A DNA stretch of 64,000 nucleotides, from contig NZ_JASVDS010000001.1 in assembly GCF_030285365.1 (NCBI RefSeq), positions 992,001 through 1,056,000 on the forward strand, given 5' to 3'. The notes beneath the pieces were generated by a model, which worked only from the letters and a program-made list of their open reading frames with translations, was not told the DNA's origin and ran no database searches. The translations under genes were made by a program, and so were the position numbers. Positions 35,952-41,133 of the stretch are shown here, one piece after another (the stretch's first letter is position 1; every line of letters starts with the position of its first letter). The DNA is from Roseateles subflavus. Lineage in GTDB: Bacteria; Pseudomonadota; Gammaproteobacteria; Burkholderiales; Burkholderiaceae_C.

Positions 35952-37346
35952 GTGTCTGAAAACTCCTCCTCCACCGCTGCCGGCATCCCCCTGCAGCGCC
36001 TCCTGCTCCAGACCGCGGACGCCGTCCAGGCCGTGCGCCAGGGGCGCTCGCTCACGGATGTCCTGGCCCGCTGCCCGCGCGAGCTGCGCCCTGGCACCCA
36101 GGCCCTGAGCTTCCACGTCCTGCGCCACCTGGGCGCGGCCCAGGCTCTGCGCCGCCAGCTCGCGCCCAAGGCGCCACCGCCCAAGGTCGAGAACCTGCTG
36201 CTGTGCGCGCTGGCCCTGCTGTGGCCCGCCGAGGAGCCGCCCTACGCCGCCCATACCGTCGTCGACCAGGCCGTGCGGGCCATGCGCCAGCGCGCGGCCC
36301 CGAGCGCTGGCTTCGTGAACGCCGTGCTGCGCCGCTTCCTGCGGGAGCGCGAGGCCCTCGTGCAGGCCCTGCAGCGCGACCCGGTGGCGCACCACAACCA
36401 TCCGCAGTGGTGGATCGACCGCGTCCGTCAGGACTGGCCCGAGCACTGGCAGGGCATCCTGGCCGCCAACAACAGCCGTCCCCCCATGACGCTGCGCGTG
36501 AACGCCCGCCAGGGCAGCGCGGCGGACTACCAGGCCCGCCTGACGGCGCAGGGACTGGCCTCGCGCCTGCTGGGCGATCGTCTGCCGCAGGGCCTGCTGC
36601 TGGATCGCCCGCAGCCGGTGTCCGCGCTGCCGGGCTTCGAGCAGGGGGCCGTGTCGGTGCAGGACGCCGCCGCCCAGATCGCCGCCCCGCTGACGGTGGC
36701 CGCCCTGCGCGGGCGCACGGGCGAGGGGCAAGACCTGGCCCTCGCCGCCCTGCCAAGCGGCGCCCGGGTGCTCGACGCCTGCTCCGCGCCGGGGGGCAAG
36801 ACCGCGCACCTGCTGGAGCTGCAGGCGCTGGACCTGCTGGCCCTGGACGCCGACGCCGAGCGCCTGGCCCGCGTCAATGACAACCTTGCCCGCCTGCAGC
36901 TGCAGGCCGGCACCCGCGCGGTGGATGCCCGCCAGACCGCCGACTGGTGGGACGGCCGCCCCTTTGACGCCATCCTGCTCGACGCGCCGTGCAGCGCCTC
37001 CGGCATCGTGCGCCGCCACCCGGACGTGCGCTGGCTGCGCCGCCCGGAGGACATCGCCCAGCTGGCGCGCATCCAGGCCGAGCTGCTGGACGCCCTGTGG
37101 CCGCTGCTCAAGCCGGGGGGGCGGCTCGTCTACGCCACCTGCTCGCTGTTCAGGGCGGAGGGGCAGGACCAGGTCGACGCATTTTTGCAACGCCGGCCTG
37201 ATGCGAAGGCCCTGGAGTGTGCCGGGCTCACGGGCCATCTGCTACCCGTGCCTGACAATGGCTCCCAGAACGCGGCCGGGCAGGCTGTCCCGCTGGACGG
37301 CTTCTTCTATGCCCTGCTCCTGAAATCGCCCGCATCCACCCACTGA
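35952..37346 (+). CDS. rsmB: 16S rRNA (cytosine-967-C5) methyltransferase
   Basis: A 464-residue SAM-dependent enzyme making m5C967 in 16S rRNA. The N-terminal 150 residues are the NusB-like RNA-binding domain (LLLQTADAVQAVRQG ... APSAGFVNAVLRRFL). The C-terminal methyltransferase has the SAM motif LDACSAPGGKTAHLLE and the two catalytic Cys regions ILLDAPCSASGIVRR and VYATCSLF. The start is a GTG; no Shine-Dalgarno is present and a -10-like box ends 6 bp upstream. The stop overlaps the next start by one base. Confidence 0.95.
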   Translation: MSENSSSTAAGIPLQRLLLQTADAVQAVRQGRSLTDVLARCPRELRPGTQALSFHVLRHLGAAQALRRQLAPKAPPPKVENLLLCALALLWPAEEPPYAAHTVVDQAVRAMRQRAAPSAGFVNAVLRRFLREREALVQALQRDPVAHHNHPQWWIDRVRQDWPEHWQGILAANNSRPPMTLRVNARQGSAADYQARLTAQGLASRLLGDRLPQGLLLDRPQPVSALPGFEQGAVSVQDAAAQIAAPLTVAALRGRTGEGQDLALAALPSGARVLDACSAPGGKTAHLLELQALDLLALDADAERLARVNDNLARLQLQAGTRAVDARQTADWWDGRPFDAILLDAPCSASGIVRRHPDVRWLRRPEDIAQLARIQAELLDALWPLLKPGGRLVYATCSLFRAEGQDQVDAFLQRRPDAKALECAGLTGHLLPVPDNGSQNAAGQAVPLDGFFYALLLKSPASTH

Positions 37347-38008
37347 TGGTTCTTGCTCCCCTGGCGCCGGTGTCGCCATGTCTGCTGCGCTGCGCCTGGC
37401 CCGCCAAGGGTCTGGGCCGCGCTGTGGCATGGGGCGGGCGGCTGCTTCTGGGGATCGTGCTGATGCTGGCCCTGCTGCTCGGGGCGGTGTCCGCGGCGCG
37501 CGCCGAGGGCATCCACCTGAGCGACCTGCGCACGGAGCGCACCGACGACGGCTTGCAGCTGAGTTTCAGCGCTCGCTTCGAGCTGACCCGCCCGGTGGAG
37601 GAGGCCTTGCTCAAGGGCTTGCCGGTCTTCTTCCAGGCCGAGGTCACCGTGATGCGCAGCCGCTGGTACTGGCGCGATGCCCGTGCGGCGCGGGCCACGC
37701 GCAGCTGGCGCCTCGTCTGGCAGCCGCTGACCCGCCAGTACCGGGTGACCACCGAGGGCCTGCACCAGAACTTCGACTCCCTCCCCGAGGCCCTGGCCTT
37801 CATGCGGGGTGTCGCCGGCTGGCGCATCGCCGAGCCCCGCGACATCGACGAGGAAGGCAAGTACTACCTCGAGTTCAGCTACAAGCTCGACACCTCCCAG
37901 CTGCCGCGCCCCATGCAGATCGGCCTGGGCGCGCCGCAGGGCTGGGGCCTGAGCGTCGAGCAGCGCCTCAACCTCGCGCCTGATTTCAGCGCCAAGCTGC
38001 AGCCATGA
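37346..38008 (+). CDS. DUF4390 exported protein
   Basis: A 220-residue protein with an N-terminal hydrophobic helix (LLLGIVLMLALLLGAVSAARA) that looks like a long signal peptide or anchor. The body has DUF4390 features (LRTERTDDGLQLSFSARFEL; FFQAEVTVMRSRWYWRD; EFSYKLDTSQLPRPMQIG). The family is a constant neighbour of NtrY-like kinases in betaproteobacteria and may supply a periplasmic input to it. The function is untested. ATG overlaps the rsmB stop (TGATG), and its own stop is overlapped by an ATG that opens the tandem-repeat frame at 38005. Confidence 0.85.
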   Translation: MVLAPLAPVSPCLLRCAWPAKGLGRAVAWGGRLLLGIVLMLALLLGAVSAARAEGIHLSDLRTERTDDGLQLSFSARFELTRPVEEALLKGLPVFFQAEVTVMRSRWYWRDARAARATRSWRLVWQPLTRQYRVTTEGLHQNFDSLPEALAFMRGVAGWRIAEPRDIDEEGKYYLEFSYKLDTSQLPRPMQIGLGAPQGWGLSVEQRLNLAPDFSAKLQP

Positions 38009-38157
38009 GCGCCGCCCGGCCGCCCGTAGGCGCGAATTCCCGCCTGGCGGGACCGCACATCGTGCGAAGGGTGCCCACAATGGACGCCGCCCGGCCGCCC
38101 GTAGGCGCGAATTCCCGCCTGGCGGGACCGCACATCGTGCGAAGGATGCTCCCGTGA
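38005..38157 (+). CDS. Candidate 50-residue ORF made of a perfect 25-residue tandem repeat
   Basis: The ATG at 38005 overlaps the DUF4390 stop (ATGA), and the TGA at 38155 overlaps the ntrY GTG (GTGA). The product is two copies of a 25-residue unit sharing ARPPVGANSRLAGPHIVRR; only the joints differ (VPTMD against MLP). Each copy ends in the purine-rich GCGAAGG, which can serve as Shine-Dalgarno for the next start. No family is known to me. The underlying DNA is a 61-bp repeat of REP-like character, so the frame may be an accident of the repeat. The double stop/start coupling makes it worth keeping. Confidence 0.4.
   Translation: MSAARPPVGANSRLAGPHIVRRVPTMDAARPPVGANSRLAGPHIVRRMLP
38010..38145. 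repeat. Two identical 61-bp repeat units, period 75 bp
   Basis: Copies at 38010–38070 and 38085–38145 are identical and separated by 14 bp. Each contains short palindromes (CGCCCGTAGGCG, CCCGCCTGGCGGG, CGCACATCGTGCG), so each can fold into consecutive hairpins like REP/BIME elements. The 75-bp period preserves the reading frame. Confidence 0.85.
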
Positions 38158-40409
38158 GCCGTGTGAGACGCTGGGCCTGGCTGGTCTCGCTGCTGGCCGT
38201 TGCCGGGGCGGGCGGCCTGCTGGCCTTCCTGCTGTCCATCGGCGCCACGGCGGAGCGCGGCTTCTTCGTGCGGCATTCGCTCTGGCTCCTGGGGCTGAAT
38301 GTCGGCGTGGCGGTCGTGCTGGCCACGGTCATCATCAGCGCCGGCGTCCGTCTGGTGCTGCGGGTGCGCCGGGGCAAGTTCGGCAGTCGCCTGCTGCTCA
38401 AGCTCGCCGGCATCTTTGCCCTCGTGGGCGTGGTGCCGGGCGTGCTGATCTACACCGTGTCCTACCAGTTCGTGAACCGCTCCATCGAAAGCTGGTTCGA
38501 CGTGCGCCTCGCCAGCGCCCTGGAGTCCGGCCTGAAGCTGGGGCAGGGCACGCTCGACGGCCTCGTCAACGAGCTGGGCACCAAGACACGCAGTGCCGCC
38601 GAGCGCCTGGGCGAGCAGGGCGGCACGCCGATGACGCTGGCGCTCGAGCGGCTGCGGGACCAGCTCTCGGCCCGTTCCGTCAGCCTGCTGGGCGCCAACG
38701 GGCAGCCGCTGGCGGTGGTCGGCGGCGCGGACAACCCCTCGCTCACCCTCAGCCGCACCAGCAGCAACCTGCTGCGCGACGTGCGCCGCCAGGGCGTGAT
38801 CAGCAAGATCGAAGGCCTGGAGGACGAGGCCAAGGCGCTGCAGGGCCAGGCCCGCATCCGCGCCCTGGCCCTCGTGCCCAGCAACGACTTCAGCCTCGGC
38901 GCCAGCGACCGCTATCTGATGGTCGTGCAGGGCCTGCCGGGCTCGGTGCTGGCCAATGCGCTCGCCGTGCAGAACGCCAACCTCGAGTACCAGCAGCGCT
39001 CGCTGGAACGGGACGGCATGCGCGGCATGTACCTCGGTACGCTCACGCTGGTGCTGATCCTGGCCACCTTCGCCGCGCTGCTGCTGGCCGTGACCCTGGG
39101 CGACCAGCTCGCCCAGCCGCTGCTGCTGCTGGCCGACGGCATGCGCCAGGTGGCACAGGGCGACCTCACCGCCAAGCCCACCATCGCCTCGCGCGACGAG
39201 CTGGGCGGCCTCACCCGCAGCTTTGCCGACATGACCCAGCAGCTGGCCGATGCCCGCCACATGGTCGAGCAGAGCGTGACCCAGCTTGAAAGCGCCCGCA
39301 CCCACCTCCAGACCATCCTGGACAACCTCACCGCCGGCGTGATCGGCTTCGATGCCCGCGGCGGCATGGACACCATCAACCCCGGCGCCACGCGCATCCT
39401 GCGCCTGCCGCTGTCGGCCTACCAGGGGCAGCGCATGGAGGCGGTGCCCGAGCTGCAGGACTTCGCCGCCGAGGTCGCCCAGCGCTTCGCCAGCAGCGAG
39501 GACAGCGACGGCACCTGGCAGGACAGCTTCGAGCTCAAGCTGCCGGGGCAGGAGGAATCGCTCAACCTGCTGATGCGCGGCGCGACCCTGCCCGAGGGCG
39601 AGCGGCTGATCGTGTTCGACGACATCTCCGAGGTCGTGTCGGCCCAGCGCTCCGCGGCCTGGAGCGAAGTGGCCCGGCGTCTGGCGCACGAGATCAAGAA
39701 CCCGCTGACGCCCATCCAGCTCTCGGCCGAGCGCCTGCAGCACAAGCTCGAGGCCAAGCTCGAGGGGCCGGACCAGGCCATGCTCGTGCGTTCGGTCGGC
39801 ACCATCGTCAACCAGGTGCAGGCGATGAAGCAGCTCGTCAACGAGTTCCGCGACTACGCCCGCCTGCCCGCCGCGCAGCTCAAGCCGCTGGACCTCAATG
39901 CGCTGGTGGGCGAGGTGCTGATGCTCTATGCCTCGGCCCAGGAGGCCGGGCGGCTGCATGCCGAGCTCACCGCGGATCTCCCCATGATCGTGGGGGACGC
40001 GACCCAGCTGCGCCAGGTCATCCACAACCTGGTGCAGAACGCGCTCGACGCGGTTGCTGATCGAGAACAAGGGCATGTGCGGGTACGCACGCTCAAATCT
40101 CTGGGCGACACTGGCGAACTTCGGGGCTTGCGCCTCGTGATCTCGGATAACGGTCCCGGCTTTGCGGAGAAAGTGCTCAAGAGAGCCTTCGAGCCCTACG
40201 TGACCACCAAGTCCAAGGGCACGGGGCTGGGGCTGGCCGTGGTCAAGAAGATCGCCGACGAGCATGGGGCGCGCATCCGCCTCAGCAATCTGCATCCCGA
40301 GGCCGACGAGTCCCTGCCGCCGAACGGCGCGCAAGTTTCGTTATCATTTTCAAAACTCGCGACTGCACCGAGCCCGGCCGAGCCGAGCGACGCTCCCGGG
40401 GCTGCGTGA
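38154..40409 (+). CDS. ntrY: NtrY-like membrane sensor histidine kinase
   Basis: A 751-residue kinase. Two N-terminal helices (residues about 7–28 and 38–60) and further hydrophobic segments near residues 85–105 and 290–310 frame a periplasmic region of about 180 residues, as in NtrY. HAMP, a PAS domain (LQTILDNLTAGVIGFDARG), HisKA with His512 in RRLAHEIKNPLTPIQLS, and HATPase boxes (NLVQNALDAV, SDNGPGF, GTGLGLAVV) follow. NtrY relatives sense nitrogen or redox state. The GTG at 38154 lies 8 bp after GAAGG of the second repeat copy. The response regulator starts 13 bp downstream. Confidence 0.9.
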   Translation: MSRVRRWAWLVSLLAVAGAGGLLAFLLSIGATAERGFFVRHSLWLLGLNVGVAVVLATVIISAGVRLVLRVRRGKFGSRLLLKLAGIFALVGVVPGVLIYTVSYQFVNRSIESWFDVRLASALESGLKLGQGTLDGLVNELGTKTRSAAERLGEQGGTPMTLALERLRDQLSARSVSLLGANGQPLAVVGGADNPSLTLSRTSSNLLRDVRRQGVISKIEGLEDEAKALQGQARIRALALVPSNDFSLGASDRYLMVVQGLPGSVLANALAVQNANLEYQQRSLERDGMRGMYLGTLTLVLILATFAALLLAVTLGDQLAQPLLLLADGMRQVAQGDLTAKPTIASRDELGGLTRSFADMTQQLADARHMVEQSVTQLESARTHLQTILDNLTAGVIGFDARGGMDTINPGATRILRLPLSAYQGQRMEAVPELQDFAAEVAQRFASSEDSDGTWQDSFELKLPGQEESLNLLMRGATLPEGERLIVFDDISEVVSAQRSAAWSEVARRLAHEIKNPLTPIQLSAERLQHKLEAKLEGPDQAMLVRSVGTIVNQVQAMKQLVNEFRDYARLPAAQLKPLDLNALVGEVLMLYASAQEAGRLHAELTADLPMIVGDATQLRQVIHNLVQNALDAVADREQGHVRVRTLKSLGDTGELRGLRLVISDNGPGFAEKVLKRAFEPYVTTKSKGTGLGLAVVKKIADEHGARIRLSNLHPEADESLPPNGAQVSLSFSKLATAPSPAEPSDAPGAA

Positions 40410-40422
40410 ACAGTAGGCATAC

Positions 40423-41133
40423 ATGGCAACCATTCTTGTTGTTGACGACGAACTGGGCATCCGGGCCCTGTTGTCTGAAATCCTGACCGACGAAGGTCAC
40501 ACGATCGAGCTGGCGGAAAACGCCGGCCAGGCCCGCGCCGTCCGTGAGCGCATGCGCCCCGACCTCGTGCTGCTGGACATCTGGATGCCCGACGTCGACG
40601 GCGTCACCCTGCTCAAGGAGTGGGGCAGCAGCGGCCAGCTGACCATGCCCGTCATCATGATGAGCGGCCACGGCACCATCGACACCGCGGTGGAGGCCAC
40701 CAAGTTCGGCGCCATCGCCTTCCTGGAAAAGCCCATCACGCTGCAGAAGCTCCTGCGCGCGGTCGAGCAGGCCCTCGTCAAGACCGCCCCGCGCCCGGCC
40801 GCCCCGGCGCCCGGTCTGCCGAGCTACGCGGCGCGTCCGGAGCTGCCCATGCACCCGCACAGTTCGGTGCTGAACCACAGCGGCCATGCCGTGGCGCCGG
40901 TGATCGCCCCTGTGCAGGCGCTGGCCTCCGAACAGCTCTTCGAGCTCGACCGTCCGCTGCGCGAGGCGCGCGATGCCTTCGAGAAGAGCTACTTCGAGTT
41001 CCACCTGGCCAAGGAGAACGGCTCCATGACCCGCGTGGCCGAGAAGACCGGCCTCGAGCGCACCCATCTGTACCGAAAGCTCAAGCAGCTGGGCGTTGAT
41101 CTTTCAAGAAATAAGCGCAACAGCCAAATTTAG
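40423..41133 (+). CDS. NtrX-like response regulator lacking the AAA+ sigma-54 domain
   Basis: A 236-residue regulator. The receiver domain (residues 1–120) has the acidic pocket in VVDDE, phospho-Asp52 in VLLDIWMPD, and the late KP of FLEKPI. A Pro/Ala-rich linker of about 60 residues follows, then a Fis-type helix-turn-helix (ENGSMTRVAEKTGLERTHLYRKLKQLGV). True NtrX (about 450 residues) has a sigma-54-activating ATPase between the two; here it is absent and no remnant remains, so this must act without it. It is the cognate partner of the kinase 13 bp upstream. tRNA-Phe follows. Confidence 0.92.
   Translation: MATILVVDDELGIRALLSEILTDEGHTIELAENAGQARAVRERMRPDLVLLDIWMPDVDGVTLLKEWGSSGQLTMPVIMMSGHGTIDTAVEATKFGAIAFLEKPITLQKLLRAVEQALVKTAPRPAAPAPGLPSYAARPELPMHPHSSVLNHSGHAVAPVIAPVQALASEQLFELDRPLREARDAFEKSYFEFHLAKENGSMTRVAEKTGLERTHLYRKLKQLGVDLSRNKRNSQI

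Follow-up and report, generated by a model that had tools for sequence, protein, structure and literature searches.

The stretch of Roseateles subflavus DNA analysed here (contig NZ_JASVDS010000001.1, positions 992,001 to 1,056,000; 64,000 nucleotides, hereafter the window) contains a 145-nt gap between a DUF4390 gene and an ntrY-like sensor kinase gene, and this gap is spanned by a 50-codon open reading frame (ORF) built from two tandem repeat units. These 150 bp are best read as a tandem duplicate of a dispersed interspersed element, similar to the mycobacterial interspersed repetitive units (MIRU) and transparent to translation, whose frame would preserve the coupling of termination and reinitiation between the two flanking genes. 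We give this explanation a probability of about three in four. The evidence for it is the dispersal of the element, the position of most sampled copies at gene joints, the occurrence of orthologous joints both with and without it, hairpins that covary, a strong bias of copy length towards multiples of three (3n) and the lack of any signal at the level of the peptide.

The 50-codon frame described in an earlier note on this DNA was confirmed at its coordinates (Table 1): it begins in the ATGA that holds the DUF4390 stop and ends in the GTGA that holds the ntrY start. Tandem Repeats Finder reported a 75-bp period with a 98% match and a score of 273, which tops its 14 rows for the window. When a 42-bp core was searched for with a tolerance of 3 mismatches, the window gave two matches, both exact, and 100 shuffles gave none. 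The claim of a 61-bp palindromic repeat holds in so far as two identical 61-bp copies (38010-38070 and 38085-38145) lie at a 75-bp spacing; these are not one palindrome but hold small hairpins. Similarly, the GAAGG said to stand ahead of each joint precedes the inner ATG (38080) and the ntrY GTG (38154) but not the first joint (38005). The open frame by itself is little evidence, given GC-rich DNA and an element consensus whose remaining forward frames, read by eye, also lack stops past the leading TGA. The informative feature of the frame is its phase, not its openness.

A genome-wide count of the unit found near-identical copies in the host only at the window locus (2 matches), yet diverged members of the family lie elsewhere. 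A covariance model (R1) was built from 15 copies of 77-79 nt and run on the host genome, where it found a further good site at the joint of the MFP and RND genes (C2:65176-65253), a degenerate copy at feoA-feoB (C18:42312-42389, 32.7 bits), which ends in TGATGA, and weaker matches. Related units were also found by DNA search elsewhere in genomes of the genus and family. In the host's family within the Burkholderiales, R1 matched 118 of 150 genomes (E<=0.01), the counts per genome in this search being lower bounds with about 31 candidates scored in each. In an order-wide draw of 200 genomes, matches at E<=1e-4 were present in 16, of which four are from the host's family (its own genome included) and 12 from other families. 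With laxer scoring at E<=1e-4, eight chosen genomes (G001, G002, G031, G133, G168, G123, G119 and G087) gave 6, 9, 50, 22, 73, 34, 24 and 18 matches, respectively. One genome outside the host's family (G237, family f44) contains 15 matches, 10 of length 81, and may represent either an element-rich lineage or a transfer.

In 20 regions that were read, most copies lie exactly between two genes, headed by ATGA and closed by (A/G)TGA. Anchored copies are 66-106 bp long and mostly begin ATGAGC. The 94 regions fetched for closer inspection were taken from the listed, score-ranked R1 matches and not as a random sample. In 87 of the 110 single copies that carry NTGA at one end and a start codon at the other, both joints are met by an open frame of 100 codons or more. 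As a control for frame length, the joint frame at the head reaches 150 codons in 88/110 copies, compared with 49/220 for the other frames. The upstream joint frame is shorter than 60 codons in 14 of the 110, and in five of those the stop of a long frame overlaps the ATG by one base (TGATG or TAATG), which is another known coupling overlap. Twelve flanking pairs, chosen by the analyst, were checked against Pfam, and eight look like operon partners, a call that is a matter of judgement: FeoA-FeoB, HlyD_D23-ACR_tran, ABC permease-ATPase, two permease-permease pairs, PqiA-PqiA, glycosyltransferase-exosortase and a pair of glycosyltransferases. The other four (L106, L113, L138, L225) are less telling.

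Joints of the same genes were then compared between genomes, the relatedness of inserts at other joints to the element being judged by eye. The DUF4390-ntrY survey covered 69 loci with both genes (the window and 68 others); a plain overlap of four bases (-4) is present in 32 and a gap of at least 5 nt in 37. Whilst the window has two units, three 75-bp units fill a gap of 220 nt in Mitsuaria sp. WAJ17 (L034), and a single degenerate unit a gap of 52 nt in Pelomonas sp. BJYL3 (L033). The three differ by whole frames, and in each the ATGA frame ends on a TGA overlapping the ntrY start (stop at +1). The frame is kept in 3/3 genus members, and copy numbers that break it, which the earlier note had named among its refuting conditions, were looked for and not found among these three. 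A regular expression for the element, applied to the 68 other ntrY loci, matched at L034 only, apart from a few chance matches in coding DNA. Where the DUF4390 stop lies over an ATG, all ten gap loci bridge (8, including L071, whose stop is at +5 and not +1) or continue in frame into ntrY (2, start uncertain); where it lies over GTG or TTG, 8/12 bridge (L052 and L087 falling short by 6 and 10 nt) and one continues in frame. Loci without a start codon over the stop (CTG, CTA, GTA) provide a small natural control, their 15 gaps being divided 5/3/7 over the three phases.

Two further observations concern this joint. Other inserts, at L049, L056, L050, L051, L039, L046 and L088, also give a frame that ends on the ntrY start. 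The 243-nt DUF4390-ntrY gap of Pelomonas sp. KK5 (L071) contains long inverted repeats (by eye), and its ATGA frame stops 5 nt beyond the ntrY start that was chosen.

At a second joint, which we take to be ftsW-murG from the MurG N-terminus and the gene order, 37 of 40 genomes matched, and 29 of the 30 loci fetched were usable. A -4 overlap is found in 16/29, including the host genome, whilst G002 contains one unit and G001 three. All 13 gaps of at least 5 nt are bridged (8) or continued in frame (5, start uncertain), including those with inserts seemingly unrelated to the element. The MFP-RND joint is filled in G000 and G002 and empty in G001 and the next genus (G009), and feoA-feoB is filled and in frame in all three genus members despite divergence; the element is missing from most loci in the surveys of these two joints (26 and 30 loci). 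In both surveys, every locus with the stop over ATG and a gap of at least 5 nt bridges or continues, save L306, the host's own feoAB, where the wrong upstream frame was scored and where the joint itself was seen in separate readings of the locus. L308 has an overlap of 8 with the frame running on. Empty orthologous joints are often plain ATGA overlaps, and murG and MFP-RND differ between filled and empty within one genus. From these filled and empty sites we infer that the element is mobile. In other genera, the seemingly unrelated inserts at four ftsW-murG loci (L266, L275, L276, L287) look as if the ftsW 3′ end, or the joint, had been duplicated, and in these too the bridging phase is kept (gap mod 3 = 1).

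The phase of the element was examined through copy length. R1 gave 99 + 83 matches on the fetched loci, which were reduced to 131 single copies by removing duplicates and merging neighbours; L007, L008 and L136 (duplicates of L119, L120 and L113), fragments of the L101 and L104 arrays and repeated places, recognised by their flanks, were dropped. Amongst the 110 copies defined above by NTGA and a start codon at their ends, division of the length by three left 0/1/2 in 96/13/1, and re-anchoring of 11 further copies brought the counts of 3n, 3n+1 and 3n+2 to 105/15/1 of 121. By match length alone, the 149 matches listed of 236 counted in the eight genomes, one partial match being excluded, gave 111/30/8; leaving out matches of 77-79 nt, because R1 was itself built from copies of that length, gave 62/13/5 of 80. 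When copies were clustered at 90% identity, 3n was the majority length in 26 of 29 clusters. The 3n lengths seen include 66, 75, 78, 81, 84 and 99, with indels at differing places, and L112, L151 and L187 contain apparent compensating +1/-1 changes (by eye). In nine of the 13 3n+1 copies anchored as found, the frame enters the next gene for more than 100 codons; these are therefore also compatible with a -4 start. In the sole 3n+2 copy (L116) the frame stops 7 nt beyond the joint stop.

Tandem arrays, of which 18 were seen including L101 and L104, point the same way. Seven consist of one continuous frame (the window, L101, L104, L144, L194, L232 and L119), and six others close their first micro-ORF within the ATGA of the next unit (L184, L149, L212, L230, L190 and L120), the later units of these six being in phase as judged by length rather than read singly. 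In 13/18 arrays, then, the inner joints carry the frame on or end it in the next ATGA.

Copies share a common layout of ATGAGC, hairpin 1, hairpin 2, hairpin 3 and A(A)GGG, followed by the next start. Hairpin 2 is of the CCCGC/GCGGG type and hairpin 3 of the GCRC/GYGC or GGCC/GGCC type. The covariation score over the 15 model copies was 0.124 compared with 0.064 when shuffled, a value reached by 0/500 shuffles; one of five measures (further pair types) was not above the shuffles. Over 97 distinct model-aligned matches the score was 0.323 against 0.077, in an alignment fitted to the structure. An ungapped set of 48 78-mers, which involves no structure fitting, gave pair 38/44 formed in 48/48 (GC 34, CG 10, TA 4; shuffled 0.57), pair 52/60 in 43/48 (shuffled 0.51) and pair 53/59 in 41/48 (shuffled 0.43). 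Rfam covariance models found no match at E<=1 on window positions 37800-38400, and on 8 loci with other copies they gave four matches, all below gathering scores. One of these, to the Twister-sister ribozyme (L105 973-1053, minus strand; 33 bits against a gathering score of 34), overlaps the element end and murG and is probably due to chance.

These features suggest how the element might be tolerated. A copy occupies an operon joint such that ATGA, as stop and start, flanks it on both sides, and supplies small hairpins, a Shine-Dalgarno-like motif and a 3n open frame from the upstream ATGA to the downstream (A/G)TGA. A ribosome ending the DUF4390 gene would reinitiate at the overlapping ATG, read the micro-ORF through the hairpins and terminate atop the ntrY start, so that coupling would be handed on rather than lost across the gap. 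In six gene pairs studied by Huber et al. 2023 (PMC10666635), a separation of about 20 nt was enough to remove coupling almost wholly. A repeat of 74 or 149 bp placed in an ATGA joint would accordingly be expected to break the coupling, unless it brought a relay of its own. That the micro-ORF is translated, that ribosomes reinitiate and that the 3n bias is due to selection for coupling are putative parts of this account, deduced from anatomy and comparison. The element probably slips into operons without interrupting the flow of ribosomes. The earlier note had offered, as one of two options, that a repeat element landed in the operon and was recruited for translational coupling. A dispersed repeat, plain ATGA at many empty joints and a kept frame support this option within what sequence can show; 'recruited' is probably too strong, because copies generally bring the phase along with them (105/121).

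The same note offered the alternative that the small protein is itself made and works with the kinase. The frame is indeed open and kept in three genus members, at 19, 50 and 75 codons, but this range of lengths, and the presence of related frames between unrelated gene pairs, speak against a functional product acting with NtrY. Moreover, entropy by codon position is 0.86/1.10/0.82 bits over 51 distinct 78-mers, so that position 3 is not the most variable and no signature of codon-level purifying selection is seen. The inner frame also shifts between copies, the A(A)GG block standing in phase 2 in many and in phase 0 in others of equal total length, and the element peptide has no match among Pfam and PDB sequences. 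We regard a functional 50-residue protein as very improbable. With no codon-position signature and a shifting inner frame, selection seems to hold the stop at the joint rather than the peptide, and the place of termination would be the conserved item.

Another reading is that the element is a domesticated regulator, its hairpins and micro-ORF tuning the ratio of products or sensing translation rate or a ligand, with coupling as its function and not only a condition of being tolerated. The covarying hairpins would suit this, as would the presence of a diverged, in-frame form at both ntrY and feoA-feoB in all three genus members. However, presence varies among close relatives at murG and MFP-RND, the flanking genes are functionally mixed and no Rfam family reaches threshold on the element. 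An RNAalifold consensus hinted that the 5′ half of the element hides the Shine-Dalgarno motif until it is translated, but predicted openness is unchanged with a ribosome covering the 5′ part (0.38 vs 0.40 over 42 folded copies) and this switch was not supported, a result which counts against regulation as well as against the coupling explanation. We consider a domesticated regulator unlikely.

The phase could also be a by-product in a selfish or structural RNA or DNA repeat of structurally fixed length, with an incidental bridging frame. The structure is conserved, openness is cheap in GC-rich DNA, and all copies fall together when clustered at 80% identity. Against an incidental phase, the several distinct lengths listed above are all 3n, with scattered indels and apparent compensating changes, and seemingly unrelated inserts at ntrY, murG and feoB joints with the stop over ATG are also mostly in phase. 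We judge a by-product to be quite improbable.

Some results weigh against our preferred explanation. A constant 3n length could stem from an RNA spacing rule. The phase counts are not independent, because all copies are related: at 85% identity there are only 7 clusters, all 3n (p=0.0005), at 80% all copies form one cluster, and if every combination of genome and length is counted a single time the split is 26/19/7 (p=0.018), which is weaker though in the same direction. The 15 3n+1 copies are exceptions to the rule, and in four of the 13 anchored as found (L111, L183, L247, L257) the frame does not run on into the next gene; 10 of the 131 single copies could not be anchored at two joints. The frame is broken in one array (L207), three arrays (L157, L202, L163) do not begin with NTGA, and for L146 the reading covered the first inner joint only. 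Three of the 12 GTG/TTG ntrY joints (L037, L042, L100) are unbridged, the frame stopping 13-33 nt before the start, as are the GTG/TTG joints L315, L318 and L349 in the other surveys. Helix 1 barely exceeds shuffles in the ungapped set, and folding energy is ordinary (mean z -0.75, none < -2; z -0.94 at the window and +0.71 for a single unit).

Several known systems resemble this family, of which MIRU is the closest in function. According to passages of a 2025 review (PMC12548453), MIRU are apparently mobile, inserted at start codons and carry an ORF coupled by a -4 spacing, and the title of Supply et al. 1997 places them in a two-component-system operon. The present element is likewise a short dispersed repeat which also occurs in tandem, its own ORF has the 3n length that joins it downstream by a -4 overlap in 105/121 anchored single copies, in keeping with predicted coupling, its joints are found filled and empty (murG and MFP-RND in one genus; ntrY compared with other genera), and at ntrY it lies in a two-component setting. 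It belongs to another bacterial lineage, and the features seen here include hairpins that covary, more than one subfamily by length and a class of 3n+1 copies. The family thus appears to work like MIRU, a likeness drawn from published descriptions of function and not from sequence. In the bicistronic design (PMC5995908, PMC12548453) a short translated cistron similarly delivers ribosomes to a coupled gene, but that design is synthetic and stands behind a promoter, whereas the present element is natural, dispersed and mostly between two operon genes. Rickettsia palindromic elements, ERIC, BOX and NEMIS likewise belong to the short interspersed repeats, and many of them have open frames able to join genes in frame; passages of PMC10969869 and PMC2229807 describe them as intergenic or internal to genes, whereas the present copies lie mostly exactly at stop/start joints. 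The GTAG/CGTC repetitive extragenic palindromes (REPs) are palindromic repeats of which some supply stop codons to flanking ORFs, but as described in PMC3733652 they are 20-40 bp long with GTAG or CGTC ends, unlike the present 66-106 bp, mostly from ATGAGC. An assignment to REPs and their associated transposases (RAYT) was rejected on this size and these ends; Y1 (PF01797) is present in 6/9 genomes and absent from the element-rich G168, G133 and G123, and the best R1 match at 13 Y1 loci was 11.2 bits. Lastly, -4 overlaps with termination-reinitiation, as found at each side of the element, are treated for gene pairs in PMC6728339 and PMC10666635, whereas the present repeat turns a single joint into at least two. 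Literature searches, in which few subscription papers were covered, turned up no description of the element; the intergenic motifs of Acidovorax and Polaromonas named in passages of PMC5217627 are different from it.

Taken together, these data suggest that a dispersed repeat can spread into operons by mimicking the very joints that it breaks up. The family offers a natural experiment on termination-reinitiation, with one element between varied gene pairs, in 0 to 3+ copies and at filled and empty sister sites. It is also a warning for annotation, as such small frames are probably relay cistrons and not proteins. If MIRU and the present family are unrelated, the strategy would have arisen more than once, in distant lineages. 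A bolder proposal, possible but doubtful, is that a large unnamed family of mobile coupling cassettes pervades the host's Burkholderiales family. The element, with its three hairpins in RNA or in single-strand DNA, would be moved by some further machinery, target ATGA joints, split the overlap through its own micro-cistron and Shine-Dalgarno motif and rewire subunit ratios in many operons, with several joints accepting unrelated inserts mainly if the frame is bridged.

Table 1. Features of the DUF4390-ntrY joint, in window coordinates.
Feature	Position	Strand	Remarks
DUF4390 gene (PF14334)	37346..38008	+	upstream gene; TGA within ATGA 38005-38008
Bridging micro-ORF, 50 codons	38005..38157	+	ATG 38005, TGA 38155-38157
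Unit 1 of element, 75 bp	38005..38079	+	R1 77.2 bits
Unit 2 with downstream joint, 78 bp	38080..38157	+	R1 82.7 bits; among the 15 source sequences of R1
Hairpin 1	unit 1: 38009-38013 with 38029-38033; unit 2: 38085-38088 with 38104-38107	+	helix 1 projected by hand
Hairpin 2 (CCCGC/GCGGG)	unit 1: 38039-38043 with 38047-38051; unit 2: 38114-38118 with 38122-38126	+	projected by hand
Hairpin 3 (GCAC/GTGC)	unit 1: 38055-38058 with 38062-38065; unit 2: 38130-38133 with 38137-38140	+	projected by hand
GAAGG, Shine-Dalgarno-like	38066..38070	+	9 nt 5′ of inner ATG 38080
GAAGG, Shine-Dalgarno-like	38141..38145	+	8 nt 5′ of ntrY GTG
GTGA, ntrY start over micro-ORF stop	38154..38157	+	many relatives align from ntrY residue 1
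ntrY-like sensor kinase gene (HAMP, HisKA, HATPase_c)	38154..40409	+	downstream gene

No sigma-70 promoter or intrinsic terminator pattern was found within 37300-38600, and a response regulator gene (40423-41133) follows the kinase gene. A consensus search of plasmid records returned two Variovorax records only, one of them a stretch without annotation. In the other, Variovorax sp. SRS16 plasmid 4 (L260 2460-2566), an annotated alpha/beta-hydrolase coding sequence starts exactly at the element joint, and a 14-codon leader frame ends in the ATGA of the element (by eye). Two copies without ATGA joints (L118 832-910; L248 1501-1575, minus strand) lie perhaps inside long open frames, and are possible in-frame insertions into genes.
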